The notes beneath the pieces were generated by a model, which worked only from the letters and a program-made list of their open reading frames with translations, was not told where the DNA came from and ran no database searches. 34,949 nt of DNA from Candidatus Nitrosopumilus sp. (lineage in GTDB: Archaea > Thermoproteota > Nitrososphaeria > Nitrososphaerales > Nitrosopumilaceae): NCBI GenBank assembly GCA_014384555.1, contig JACNFR010000046.1, positions 1 to 34,949 on the forward strand. The letters are read 5' to 3'. Below, in pieces: positions 8,445 to 20,963 of the stretch. A program made the translations under genes and the position numbers. Numbering within the stretch: the first letter of the stretch is position 1; the number at the start of each line of letters is the position of its first letter.

Positions 8445-9410
8445 CTAGGATAATTTTTTAGACATCTTTTTGGATGTTTTTGTAGAAGGTTTTTTTGTAG
8501 TTTTTGTAGGCATTTTTTTGGTTGTTTTTGCAGTTGTTTTTGCAGTTGTTTTTGCAGTTGTTTTTGCAGTTGTTTTTGCAGTTGTTTTGATAGATTCAAC
8601 AGCTGTTTTTTCGGTAGTTTTTTTACCAGACCTATTAAAAAATGCCTTTCGAGCAAAGCAAAGATAGGTGGTGTGACCAATACCTTGGAAAGAATGTCGG
8701 GTTTTTCCTTCTCTAGCTTCTATATTTCGAATAATATGTTCAGTTGATTCGATATCAGTGAATTCATTTTCAACTAGAGCCATAGTTAATTTTTCTAATT
8801 GATTCATAGTAGGACAAATTGCAAAAATGCTACCACTTCCTTTAAGCATCTTTCTAACTTGAGGAATCACAACCCAAGGATCACCTAAATCAATTAATGC
8901 GACATCCATGTTTTCTAAAGGCATTTTTTTCGCAGTCTTTAAATCCAAATTATGTTGGGTCACATATTTTGAAACTCCCGCTTTTTTGATATTTTTCTCA
9001 GCTATTTTCATAAATTTTTCATCGACATCGAAGGTGTATACATGTCCACGAGGTTTCACAACACTTGCAACAAAAGAAGTTAAAGAGCCACTACCAGTTC
9101 CAATCTCCAAGATTTTTTGGCCATCGCCAATTCCAGCTCTTGCAATAATGTAACCAATATCTTTTGGATAAACAATTTGGGTTCCATGTTGAATTCTCAT
9201 TACATAATCATACATAGTAGGTTCAAGAAGATAGACATACTTGTCCTTGTTCGTAATTAATTTGGAACCGTATTCTTTGCCAATTGCATCTGAATGTTTT
9301 AGAATTCCAATATGAGTATGGAATGATTCATTTTTTGAAATTTTTGCTAACCATTTTTTTGAATCATTGTAGAAGAATAAGACTGGAGAATTTTGTTTAA
9401 TTTTAGCCAT
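8445..9410 (-). CDS. trmI: TrmI-type tRNA (adenine-N1)-methyltransferase with H1-like tail
   Basis: The 321-aa protein has the TrmI/TRM61 layout: a small N-terminal beta domain (about 1-75), then a class I SAM-dependent methyltransferase with LEIGTGSGSL (102-110), the acidic strand end TFDVDEKF, and the DLGDPW motif that replaces the usual NPPY/DxPD element in m1A methyltransferases. Archaeal TrmI methylates A57/A58 in the tRNA T-loop. The catalytic part ends near residue 258. The last 63 residues are an unusual extension made almost wholly of Lys, Thr, Ala and Ser, with repeated KTTA followed by TKK/TSKK blocks, like histone H1 tails. The tail is probably disordered and binds nucleic acid; this is inference. 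No frameshift is seen at the junction. Confidence 0.88.
   Translation of the reverse strand: MAKIKQNSPVLFFYNDSKKWLAKISKNESFHTHIGILKHSDAIGKEYGSKLITNKDKYVYLLEPTMYDYVMRIQHGTQIVYPKDIGYIIARAGIGDGQKILEIGTGSGSLTSFVASVVKPRGHVYTFDVDEKFMKIAEKNIKKAGVSKYVTQHNLDLKTAKKMPLENMDVALIDLGDPWVVIPQVRKMLKGSGSIFAICPTMNQLEKLTMALVENEFTDIESTEHIIRNIEAREGKTRHSFQGIGHTTYLCFARKAFFNRSGKKTTEKTAVESIKTTAKTTAKTTAKTTAKTTAKTTKKMPTKTTKKPSTKTSKKMSKKLS
8521..8580 (-). repeat. 12-bp tandem repeat coding KTTA
   Basis: Five exact copies of the 12-mer GTTGTTTTTGCA (plus-strand reading) lie head to tail inside the 3' part of trmI, with a degenerate copy after 8580. On the coding strand each unit encodes Ala-Lys-Thr-Thr. The copies are identical at synonymous positions, which points to recent slippage or expansion rather than old selection on the protein alone. 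Confidence 0.95.
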
Positions 9411-15993: not shown

Positions 15994-17097
15994 TTGGGAA
16001 TTCCTGAAAAAATTAAAGCCATTCAAGATGAAATGGCAAAAACTCAGATTAACAAAGCTACTGAGCATCATATTGGATTACTAAAGGCAAAGATTGCAAA
16101 ACTGAAAAGAGAGCAAGAATCAGAAGTTGCCAAAAAGTCAGGGATGAAGCAAGATGGATTTGATGTACGGCGTAGTGGAGATGCAACTGTAGTGTTTATT
16201 GGATTGCCAAGTGTTGGAAAATCTACATTACTAAACAAAATGACCAGTGCAAAATCAACAGTTGGTGCTTTTCAATTTACAACTCTAACAGTAGTTCCAG
16301 GGATGATGGAGTATAGAGGTGCCAATATTCAGGTATTAGACCTTCCAGGAATTATCAAAGGGGCATCCTCAGGTAAAGGATTAGGAAAGAGAATTTTGTC
16401 TGTTGCAAGAACTGCAGATCTTGTTCTACTAGTATTAGATGTATTCCAACCATATCACGAAGATGTCCTGACTAATGAGTTAGGAAATATAGGAATTAGA
16501 TTAAATCAATTACCGCCAAATATTACAATTGAGAAAGCATCAATGGGTGGAATTGCAATTGCACAACAAGTAAAATTAACAAAAATCACAGAAAAACATC
16601 TCAAAGATATTTTGCATCTATATGGTTTAGTCAGTGCACGTGTAGTAGTTAGAGAAGACATAACATCAGAGCAATTAGCTGATCATATTGCAGGAAACAT
16701 TAGTTATTCTAAAGCACTGACCATTCTAAATAAAATTGATCTAGTAGATGAGGCATTTCTAAAAGATTTGAAAACAAAAATTAAATCAGATGTGATAGAA
16801 GTATCTGCAAACTCTGATCTCAATATCGATTTACTTAAAGAGAAAATTTATGAGAAATTAAAGTTCATTAGAATTTACTTGAGACCAAAAGGAGGAGAAG
16901 CAGATTTCAAAGAACCGTTGATTGCAAGAGAAGGAGATACAGTTGAAGATATTTGTAATAAACTACATCGAAGATTAAAACGAGAATTCAGATATGGGTT
17001 AATTTGGGGAAAGAGTGTAAAGTTTGGAGGACAACGTGTGGGATTAAATCACATAATGCTTGATGAAGATGTGTTAACAATTATCAAAAGACGATAA
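15994..17097 (+). CDS. DRG-family OBG-type GTPase
   Basis: The 367-aa protein matches archaeal relatives of developmentally regulated GTP-binding proteins, which associate with translation. It has an N-terminal helical segment with AKLKRE, the P-loop GLPSVGKS (70-77) and the switch region TTLTVVPGMMEYRGANIQVLDLPG. It also has NKID and a C-terminal TGS domain (about 290-367) that includes a LRPKGG lead-in and ends MLDEDVLTIIKRR. The start is TTG at 15994. It is divergent from the phosphatase gene with a 89-bp gap. The domain set is complete; role in ribosome function is known from the family only. Confidence 0.95.
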   Translation: MGIPEKIKAIQDEMAKTQINKATEHHIGLLKAKIAKLKREQESEVAKKSGMKQDGFDVRRSGDATVVFIGLPSVGKSTLLNKMTSAKSTVGAFQFTTLTVVPGMMEYRGANIQVLDLPGIIKGASSGKGLGKRILSVARTADLVLLVLDVFQPYHEDVLTNELGNIGIRLNQLPPNITIEKASMGGIAIAQQVKLTKITEKHLKDILHLYGLVSARVVVREDITSEQLADHIAGNISYSKALTILNKIDLVDEAFLKDLKTKIKSDVIEVSANSDLNIDLLKEKIYEKLKFIRIYLRPKGGEADFKEPLIAREGDTVEDICNKLHRRLKREFRYGLIWGKSVKFGGQRVGLNHIMLDEDVLTIIKRR

Positions 17098-17395: not shown

Positions 17396-17818
17396 ATGGC
17401 TACAAAAAGAAAAGCTGCAACTAAACGTAGATCAACTAGAAAGTCTACCGCAGCAGCTCCAAAAAGAAAAGCTACTAGAAAAACTGCAGCTAAAAAAGCA
17501 GCTCCAAAGAGAAAAGCAGCACCAAAACGCAAAGCAGCTCCAAAGAGAAAAGCAGCAACTAGAAAAGCAGCTCCAAAGAGAAAAGCTACTAGAAAAACTG
17601 CAGCTAAAAAAGCAGCAACTAGAAAAGCAGCTCCAAAGAGAAAAGCTACTAGAAAAACTGCAGCTAAAAAAGCAGCAACTAGAAAAGCAGCTCCAAAGAG
17701 AAAAGCTACTAGAAAAACTGCAGCTAAAAAAGCAGCTCCAAAGAGAAAAGCAGCACCAAAACGCAAAGCAGCTCCAAAGAGAAAAGCAGCAACTAGAAAA
17801 GCAGCAAAAAGACGATAA
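17396..17818 (+). CDS. H1-like Lys/Arg/Ala repeat chromatin protein
   Basis: The 140-aa product uses only seven residue types: Ala, Lys, Arg, Thr, Pro, Ser (two) and the initiator Met. There are no acidic and no bulky hydrophobic residues, so it cannot form a normal globular core. The units AAPKRKA, ATRK and TRKTAAKK recur and resemble C-terminal tails of histone H1 and bacterial H1-like proteins (Hc1/AlgP type), which bind and compact DNA. A role in chromosome compaction or in polyphosphate/RNA binding is inference. The ATG at 17396 and stop at 17818 are clear. The opposite-strand and alternate-frame ORFs here are shadows of the repeats. An inverted repeat lies upstream. Confidence 0.85.
   Translation: MATKRKAATKRRSTRKSTAAAPKRKATRKTAAKKAAPKRKAAPKRKAAPKRKAATRKAAPKRKATRKTAAKKAATRKAAPKRKATRKTAAKKAATRKAAPKRKATRKTAAKKAAPKRKAAPKRKAAPKRKAATRKAAKRR
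17551..17730 (+). repeat. Three exact 60-bp tandem repeats in the H1-like gene
   Basis: Bases 17551-17610, 17611-17670 and 17671-17730 are identical, each encoding 20 residues. In addition, a 107-bp direct repeat flanks the array: 17465-17571 matches 17699-17805 exactly. Identity at synonymous positions shows recent expansion or gene-conversion-like homogenisation. Confidence 0.95.
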
Positions 17819-18073: not shown

Positions 18074-19738
18074 TCAATAAAGATAACTCATTAATTTAAT
18101 TTGTTCTTCAGTAGAGATTACATTTTTGTTAGTCAATATTTCCAGTAAATCTTTGAAAAGAGCTTTCTGTTCGGAAGACATTCCTCCTGAAGGACCTTTT
18201 TCTCCGGGTGGACCAGGTGGACCTCTTGGACCTGCAGGACCAACTGGGCCTTGTCCCCCAACTGGGCCTTGTTCACCTATTGTACCAATAGGACCAGTAG
18301 GACCACGTTCACCCTGCGGGCCTTGAATTCCTTGTGGACCTTGTGGACCTTTTTCTCCTGAAGGACCTGTTGTTCCACGTTCACCCTGGGAACCTTGCGG
18401 ACCTTGTGGACCTTTTTCTCCGGGTGCGCCTAATGGACCTGTTTGACCTTTTTCTCCAAGAGGACCAATGGAACCTTTGTCACCTTTTTCTCCTTGTGGA
18501 CCAGGTACTCCTGTTAATCCTTTAGAACCGGCTGGACCTTGTGGACCTTGTGGACCTTTTTCTCCAAGAGGACCTTCAGGACCTTTGTTTCCTTTTTCCC
18601 CCATTGGACCAGGTGGACCTAATTGACCTTTGTCACCAAGAGGACCTGTTGGACCTGTTAATCCTTTATCACCATGAGGACCGGGTGGACCTAATGGACC
18701 TTTGTCGCCGGATGGACCTATAGGACCTTTGTCACCAAGAGGACCAGGTCCGCCCTGAATTCCTTTTTCACCTTGAACACCGGATAATCCAGTAGGACCT
18801 TTGTCGCCAAGAGGACCTGTTGGACCTGTTAATCCTTTATCACCAATTACACCTTGCGGACCTTTGTCACCTTTTTCTCCAGGGACACCTCTTAATCCAG
18901 ATGCGCCTTTGTCACCGACAGAACCTGTTGGACCTTTTTCTCCTTTGTCACCAAGAGGACCTTTTAATCCACTTGGACCTTTGTCACCAAGAGGACCTGT
19001 TGGACCTTTTTCTCCTTTGTCACCGGGTGGACCTGAAATTCCTTTGTCACCTTTATCACCTTTATCTCCAGTAATTCCTTTGTCACCAGTTAATCCTTTA
19101 TCACCAGAAAGACCTTTGTCACCTTGTGAACCTTTGTCACCAGTTGCTCCTTTGTCACCAGGTGAACCTTTGGGACCTTCAGGTCCTTTAATTCCAGGTG
19201 GACCTTGAGGGCCAGGTGGACCAGGTGGACCTTTGTCACCAGGTGGACCTGTCGGACCAGATTCACCTTTGTCACCAGGTGGACCTGTCGGACCATCATT
19301 TGGTTTTGCAGAACGTGTAGGTTTTTGAATATCAGAAATTGTTTTTGTTTCAGGTTTTGTTTCAGGTTTTGTTTCAGGTTTTGTTTCAGGTTTTGTTTCA
19401 GGTTTTGATGTTGATCTAGCTAAAGGAACATCAAAAACAGTATGTAATGAAGAAAATAAATCAGTGACAACAATCCAAACACCATCAAGATTAGCAATGG
19501 ATGATGGAAGTGGATTTGTAGGAGAACCCAGAGTTTCAGAAAATATACCATCTTTTACTCGAAGATGAAAATTCCCCTTCCATAAAGATGAAAATTGTTT
19601 TAAACGAATAGCATCATCAGATGGTTTACTATCAGTAATGGCAATTTGAGCTTCATACACACCTGATTGTTTGAAAGGTGCCTGTCCTTGAATCTCTAAT
19701 CGTGGCTGAGATGACACAATCGTTTGTGGATATTTCAA
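18074..19738 (-). CDS. Collagen-like G-X-Y repeat protein
   Basis: The 554-aa product has four parts. Residues 1-108 form a beta-rich N-terminal domain with no recognised family. Residues about 112-132 hold five PETK repeats. Residues 149-519 are 123 consecutive, uninterrupted Gly-X-Y triplets. Residues 520-554 are a helical tail ([16 protein letters not shown]). Triplets are rich in GDKG, GEKG, GPTGP, GPPGP and GPQGP, so Lys-Gly-Asp/Glu ion pairs could stabilise a triple helix without hydroxyproline. No signal peptide or transmembrane anchor is visible, so location is unknown; a surface fibre or an intracellular structural role are both possible. The TTG at 19738 is the only usable start, as a TAA lies five codons upstream in frame. 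It stands alone between convergent and divergent neighbours. Confidence 0.92.
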
Positions 19739-19841
19739 GTATTTCTGTATTTAGATCGCTTCATCCTATGTAAATTAAGATTGAATGATAATAGGCTCAA
19801 TTAAGCTTGGTATTTATCTAGATAAAATGAATAATTGAGCT

Positions 19842-20963
19842 GTGAAGAAACTGTTTGGAAGAAATAGAAAAGAGGTAAAGAAGACAAATACCGAGGAGAT
19901 AATTCCACAGGAACGTAGTTTAGTAGATGTAGATTACAATCGTAAAAAATTATTTAAAAAAGGAGTCAATCTGATGGCAGATGAAAAACTAGAAGACGCC
20001 ATAGAGATGTTTGAACAGGCATTACGAATTGATCCTGATAATGTTGAAACTTTAATGAAAATAGGATATGCGAGATTTCATCTAGACGAATATCCAGAAG
20101 CACTAAAAGTATATGATAAAATTTTAGAAATTGATGTTACAAATCCAGAAGCTTGGAATCTCAAAGGATTGGTGCATTATGAACAAAAAAATTATACTAA
20201 AGCATTAGATGCAGCTCAGAAAGCAATTGAATCAGATCCAACATACGGAATGGCATGGTATAATCAAGCATGTTTCCTGTCACTTCTAAATCAAGTTCCA
20301 GAATCATTAGAAGCATTGAAACGTTCTATTGAAATCGATGTGAAAAATGCAAGAAGATCAATTAGAGATAAAGATTTCATGAACGTAAGAATTGAAGAAG
20401 GATTCAAAAGAATTGAAGAGGTCGTGGTGTTAGAATCAGTCAGACAAGGATACCACACAATTGGTGCAATAGTATGGACAACATTTCTAGATAAAGCAGA
20501 TGCAATGACAGCTTTGAATAAATTGTTAGAGAAAGGTTTGATTGTACAAAATGAAAAACGTGATGGTCTAAGTAGAATTCCAATATATGATCTAGCAGAC
20601 AACATTGCAGAAAAACTTGGAAAAGAAAAGAAAGGATTATTTGGAATCACCAAAAAAACATTACCAAAACCAGTTAAGAATTTGAAAGAACTTAGTCAAG
20701 CAATTCAATCAGTTAAAGAATCAATTGAAGAAGAAGATATTGATAAAACCATAGAAATTTTTGATGTTTTCATAGACCCAAAAAAATCAGGTGAACAAAT
20801 GATAGAAAATTTCTTTGATGAACATAGAGAAATAAGATTATGGAAAATCAGATTAAAAGATAGAGGCGTAGACTATCTAATAGATAACAAAGAGAAAATG
20901 ATTGTTTTGTTTGACAATATTGAAGGAACAGTTACAAAAAAACTTAGAAATGAAATTGCTTAA
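19842..20963 (+). CDS. TPR protein with probable winged-helix-like C-terminal part
   Basis: The 373-aa protein starts with a short basic segment (KKLFGRNRKEVKK) and has about four tetratricopeptide repeats between residues 35 and 170 (ALRIDPDNVETLMKIGYARFHL and similar helix pairs). These mediate protein-protein contacts. Residues about 200-262 (TIGAIVWTTFLDKADAMTALNKLLEKGLI) look like a helix-turn-helix or winged-helix unit. The last 110 residues are charged helices ending in FDNIEGTVTKKLRNEIA. The start is GTG at 19842 with a TATTTATC box centred about 27 nt upstream. The gene ends directly against the rhodanese gene (zero gap, convergent). Partner unknown. Confidence 0.82.
   Translation: MKKLFGRNRKEVKKTNTEEIIPQERSLVDVDYNRKKLFKKGVNLMADEKLEDAIEMFEQALRIDPDNVETLMKIGYARFHLDEYPEALKVYDKILEIDVTNPEAWNLKGLVHYEQKNYTKALDAAQKAIESDPTYGMAWYNQACFLSLLNQVPESLEALKRSIEIDVKNARRSIRDKDFMNVRIEEGFKRIEEVVVLESVRQGYHTIGAIVWTTFLDKADAMTALNKLLEKGLIVQNEKRDGLSRIPIYDLADNIAEKLGKEKKGLFGITKKTLPKPVKNLKELSQAIQSVKESIEEEDIDKTIEIFDVFIDPKKSGEQMIENFFDEHREIRLWKIRLKDRGVDYLIDNKEKMIVLFDNIEGTVTKKLRNEIA

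Follow-up and report, generated by a model that had tools for sequence, protein, structure and literature searches.

Here, we describe a collagen-like gene that, judged by its distribution among sequenced genomes, is a single-copy core gene of the Nitrosopumilaceae, a family of ammonia-oxidising archaea that is very abundant in the sea. Its product is of a known kind, the collagen-like proteins, and by profile comparison falls outside every named subfamily tested; what is new is a universal and apparently unexported archaeal collagen with orphan end domains. Prokaryotic collagen-like proteins are usually described as patchy, surface-exposed adhesins, and a literature search of incomplete coverage returned no description of this gene.

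A collagen-like run between two conserved ends

The gene lies in a 34,949-nucleotide window, the whole stretch of DNA analysed, from a Candidatus Nitrosopumilus genome of 1.39 Mb in 84 contigs. In what follows, the genus means its Nitrosopumilus relatives; Nitrosarchaeum is another genus of the family. The features of the gene are as follows.

18074..19717, minus strand: collagen-like coding sequence, 547 aa, GTG start, placed by start conservation among genus loci
19737..19759, minus strand: conserved promoter-like element GCGATCTAAATACAGAAATACTT, just 5' of the start, with conservation dropping abruptly at its upstream edge
19409..19714, minus strand: N-terminal beta-sandwich domain of about 102 aa (AlphaFold2), an orphan family whose profile matches only in Nitrosopumilaceae
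19295..19408, minus strand: low-complexity linker with PETK repeats, differing in length and sequence between species
18188..19294, minus strand: uninterrupted Gly-X-Y run of 123 triplets, about 105 nm long if triple-helical
18077..18187, minus strand: C-terminal 37-aa tail, a helix-turn-helix hairpin (AlphaFold2) and the most conserved segment

The first-pass annotation had started the protein at a TTG at 19738 (18074-19738), a start that comparison with relatives does not sustain. Among the 53 genus loci readable in a 5' alignment, the codon equivalent to Val12 of that longer frame reads GTG in 47 cases and ATG in the other 6, and the seven codons upstream of the GTG contain an in-frame stop in 10 of the 53 loci, with one further locus frameshifted. 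Because the GTG or ATG is conserved and the frame above it is broken in relatives, we take the protein to be 547 aa long, starting at 19717. The discarded TTG falls at or in GCGATCTAAATACAGAAATACTT, which is nearly invariant across genus loci and which we read as a promoter.

On the minus strand, the frame encodes 123 perfect Gly-X-Y triplets in a row, followed by a GGM step, and the protein scores 193.7 bits against the Pfam Collagen model (PF01391; cut-off 27.2), so that the long, perfect archaeal collagen domain originally reported is real. In 13 comparisons, each between orthologs of the same length, the first two positions of the Gly codons show no changes at all, while the wobble base differs in 34-58 of 124 codons and the X and Y residues differ at 13-42 positions each. 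Since the Gly codons change at wobble positions only, we regard this pattern as direct evidence, at the codon level, that the Gly register is functional and that the triple helix is under selection. Across the family, we collected 101 orthologous reading frames, of which 89 are complete; two of the 12 incomplete frames (L069 and L134) terminate out of frame, and the other 10 run off contig ends. Random interruption of the run in close relatives had been named as an observation that would count against the first-pass reading, and it was not found: all but two of the 89 complete frames carry a single unbroken run of 68-185 triplets, and both exceptions contain masked bases. Run length is mostly 122-126 triplets within the genus and varies between genera.

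The rod has 43% Pro and 30% Asp/Glu at X and 31% Lys at Y. The first-pass annotation had suggested that ion pairs could stabilise such a helix without hydroxyproline. The absence of PF13640, the 2-oxoglutarate oxygenase domain of prolyl-hydroxylase type, from all five Nitrosopumilus genomes tested agrees with the hydroxyproline part of this idea. The ion-pair part holds only in part: GDK/GEK-type triplets are strongly enriched (35 versus 12.5 expected), whereas the Lys-Gly-Asp/Glu steps are below expectation (7 versus 12.2 after shuffling). In a review (PMC7824840), KGE and KGD are reported to be strongly stabilising, and a (DKG)10 peptide to form no stable homotrimer. With KGD/KGE steps under-represented, we reject stabilisation by them as an explanation, and their scarcity leaves the thermal stability of the helix uncertain.

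Charge along the rod repeats every 12 residues, with an autocorrelation of 0.63 in the window protein against 0.28 +/- 0.06 for shuffled triplets, and the best lag is 12 or a multiple of 12 in 95 of 96 orthologs. GDK or GEK occurs at about every fourth triplet, and the 12-residue charge period is conserved across genera. The rod DNA has a 36-base tandem period; because this matches the charge period, it suggests that the rod grew by duplication of a unit. The PETK repeats of the linker likewise correspond to a DNA repeat, of 12 bases.

Both ends of the protein are far better conserved than the linker and rod, as would be expected of ends that bind partners, and the tail, at 89% mean column identity within the genus, exceeds all other parts. 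AlphaFold2 predicts confident folds for both: the N-terminal domain (mean pLDDT 90.1) has six strands and two short helices, and the tail has two helices, at residues 14-29 and 35-45 of 46. Translation and structure prediction thus bear out the modular architecture proposed earlier, with a beta domain, a PETK spacer and a helical tail, and the accompanying suggestion that both ends could hold trimerisation parts is supported as a possibility. Neither end belongs to a known family. Sequence and fold searches with the N-terminal domain returned nothing significant in Pfam, PHROGs, PDB or BFVD, the best fold match being the non-significant hit to the adhesin SgrA (5fce; E 0.1, TM 0.51), and the tail has no significant relative in Pfam or PHROGs. 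A kinship of the N-terminal domain with a beta domain of bacterial surface proteins is a tentative lead at most. The helix-turn-helix pattern of the tail raised the SHOCT domain (PF09851) as a candidate, which we rejected: a Pfam scan of 24 tails gave no SHOCT match, and alignment of the tail with a SHOCT domain of the same genome had an hhalign probability of 0.5%.

Distribution and gene neighbourhood in Nitrosopumilaceae

Of 250 Nitrosopumilaceae genomes, 206 contain a match to a profile of the N-terminal domain; they include 122 of the 131 good ones and represent all 22 genera, with one copy per genome save for three genomes with two matches. The gene is retained even in streamlined genomes of 0.8-1.2 Mb; those of 0.8 Mb have a shorter, partly masked collagen, and the tail is still recognisable. 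Eighteen other genera share the same order of parts: a beta domain, a variable charged linker, one run of 68-185 triplets and a similarly ending tail. The wider archaeal search for the N-terminal domain that had been proposed at the outset returned matches in Nitrosopumilaceae only, with nothing beyond the family among 300 genomes of the class or, for a broader profile, among 398 genomes of the phylum. The archaeal origin first assigned to the gene is supported, while the accompanying statement that collagen-like domains are rare in archaea does not stand as worded: this one is universal in a very large archaeal family, and secreted collagens also occur in a sister family.

Nine good genomes lack a match (G013, G044, G047, G075, G088, G107, G122, G206 and G219). 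In four of them (G044, G088, G107 and G122) the contig stops 0.4-0.7 kb beyond the neighbouring DRG gene, on the side where the collagen gene would lie, in G075 the TPR neighbour is cut by a contig end, and in G206, G122 and G219 collagen matches are still present; G013 and G219 also lack the DRG neighbour. Because the neighbours sit at contig ends or collagen matches persist, we consider these absences to be mostly assembly gaps. The Nitrosopumilus collagen gene also turns up, at 87% identity, on a contig assigned to a Phycisphaerae bacterium MAG (OFTM243; our locus L226), most likely through bin contamination.

Two neighbours of the gene are conserved by synteny.

19842..20963, plus strand: TPR protein gene, divergently oriented, conserved neighbour
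15994..17097, plus strand: gene for what we take, from sequence and general knowledge, to be a DRG/Obg-type GTPase, conserved neighbour on the other side

The family retains the order DRG, collagen, TPR, rhodanese, sulfite reductase, Thi4, apart from a few local rearrangements, and nearly all of the 37 neighbourhoods examined in other genera have the same flanking neighbours, which are housekeeping genes. We considered the TPR protein as a dedicated partner; the association is not diagnostic, since the TPR gene also occurs in other families of the order that have no collagen gene, and by this distribution it is the older of the two. Other proteins of the window have lysine-rich repeats as well. 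Adjoining the collagen gene, 17396-17818 (plus strand) encodes a protein of Lys/Ala/Pro/Arg-rich repeats that looks like a histone H1 tail (KAAPKRKAATRKAAPKRKATRKTAAKK); its DNA is a series of 60-base tandem repeats, and only some relatives have it. At 8445-9410 (minus strand), a protein like the tRNA m1A-type methyltransferases terminates in long KTTAKTTAK repeats, another low-complexity, lysine-rich tail.

Export signals and alternative readings

The first-pass annotation saw no export signal, and this observation now extends to about 100 orthologs, none of which has an export signal or a hydrophobic N-terminus. Over the first 36 residues of 100 orthologs, hydropathy stays at or below 1.24 (mean 0.23), with a beta strand at the peak. 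As a control, nearly all other collagens examined in the class that have an intact N-terminus start with a hydrophobic, signal- or anchor-like stretch (1.6-3.3), L258 being the exception. Exporting collagen in the usual way is within the capacity of these organisms, although they do not seem to do so with this protein. The secreted Nitrososphaeria collagens (for example L239, L245 and L249) come from the same archaeal class and share Gly-X-Y repeats, but differ in their hydrophobic start and flanking domains, and the N-terminal profile has no match outside the family. One of them, from a related genus (L239; G222 contig 1, 1248000-1262000), is a giant: its 2518-aa frame opens with a hydrophobic signal-like stretch and holds 559 triplets without interruption.

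We put the chance that the protein is located in the cytoplasm at about even. Known bacterial collagens with a function are mostly found at the cell surface, which counts against this location, and release by lysis, in vesicles or by some other unconventional route may also occur. The main alternative, though a rather unlikely one, is that the protein forms a surface fibre or adhesin, exported by an unrecognised non-Sec route and decorating or stabilising the S-layer; in its favour are composition and architecture, both of which resemble bacterial surface collagens. The streptococcal proteins Scl1 and Scl2 (NF038330, NF038329) share a long uninterrupted Gly-X-Y run without hydroxyproline, a Pro-rich X position and a globular N-terminal domain; unlike them, the archaeal protein lacks a signal peptide and an LPXTG anchor, has unrelated end domains and is rich in Lys rather than Thr at Y. 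Its scores miss the cut-offs of the curated Scl models (223.1 versus 325 and 179.2 versus 400 bits), as do those of eight orthologs. Legionella Lcl (NF046116) is similar in its collagen repeat (249.8 bits), but the cut-off of 500 is missed and the ends are unrelated. The best fold match of the N-terminal domain, SgrA, is an adhesin, though non-significant as a match. A study on Ca. N. chungbukensis MY2, also in Nitrosopumilaceae, reports 'LPXTG-anchored collagen-like adhesins' that are up-regulated at low salinity, and detects one of these in the proteome (PMC13037477); these may correspond to this gene or to a secreted paralog. Against a surface location stand the absence of a signal in any ortholog where most other collagens of the class have one, the window protein's lack of an LPXTG motif and of any membrane segment, and the paucity of N-glycosylation sequons (0.23 per N-terminal domain).

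Among similar known proteins, BclA of the Bacillus exosporium is a collagen-like trimer produced intracellularly without Sec export, but is part of a spore coat, a structure absent from these archaea, and phage tail fibres with collagen repeats are made in the cytoplasm without signal peptides. We consider it very improbable that the gene is a domesticated virus or tailocin fibre. The protein matches many tail-fibre families of PHROGs (for example phrog_8745 and phrog_1806), but through the collagen repeat only: neither end domain matches PHROGs or viral contigs, and the N-terminal domain has no match in phages. The neighbours are housekeeping genes conserved across the family, with no virion genes among them, and the distribution is vertical, single-copy and universal; we therefore reject a phage or provirus origin. 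We give almost no credence to a neutral origin, in which an open tandem DNA repeat encodes no functional triple helix. The 36-base periodicity and the differences in length between genera would fit such a repeat, but it is contradicted by the codon comparisons, with 34-58 wobble changes in each and not one Gly lost, by the conserved ends and by universal retention in reduced genomes.

A possible cytoplasmic tether

Trimerisation, rod formation, a cytoplasmic location and a tether role are what we infer from these observations. With even confidence, we propose a homotrimeric collagen-like rod that bears three beta heads, ends in a foot formed by a helical hairpin, and probably serves in the cytoplasm as a tether or scaffold. 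In the Scl proteins a flanking domain nucleates trimerisation (PMC8968730), and by analogy we infer that this protein, too, is a homotrimer, its rod about 105 nm long as calculated from the standard collagen rise of 0.286 nm per residue. The three chains would be set in register through the C-terminal helical hairpin, the N-terminal beta-sandwich heads or both, and would wind into an uninterrupted, non-hydroxylated triple helix of that length, with the heads flexibly linked to one end of the rod and the conserved hairpin forming a foot at its opposite end. The protein would stay in the cytoplasm, where the rod would act as a long tether, spacer or scaffold that keeps head-bound and foot-bound partners a set distance apart. 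A tether or spacer function is the most economical reading, because the ends are conserved, the linker is variable and length is kept within limits. For the family as a whole, we tentatively suggest, at slightly less than even confidence, an intracellular collagen: a universal, single-copy, triple-helical rod that has a dedicated head and foot and acts in the cytoplasm as a tether or scaffold. Jointly with this intracellular reading, and just as tentatively, the rod would measure about 60-160 nm depending on species, comparable to the width of these small cells.

The gene provides a family-specific marker, and its orthologs form a natural series of non-hydroxylated collagens spanning 68-185 triplets. 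More broadly, it is a core collagen gene, without a recognisable export signal, in an archaeal family abundant in the ocean. The outcome is informative either way, as a clear cytoplasmic collagen or as an undescribed archaeal export route. Nitrosopumilaceae may thus have an intracellular use for collagen, something that would be very unusual.
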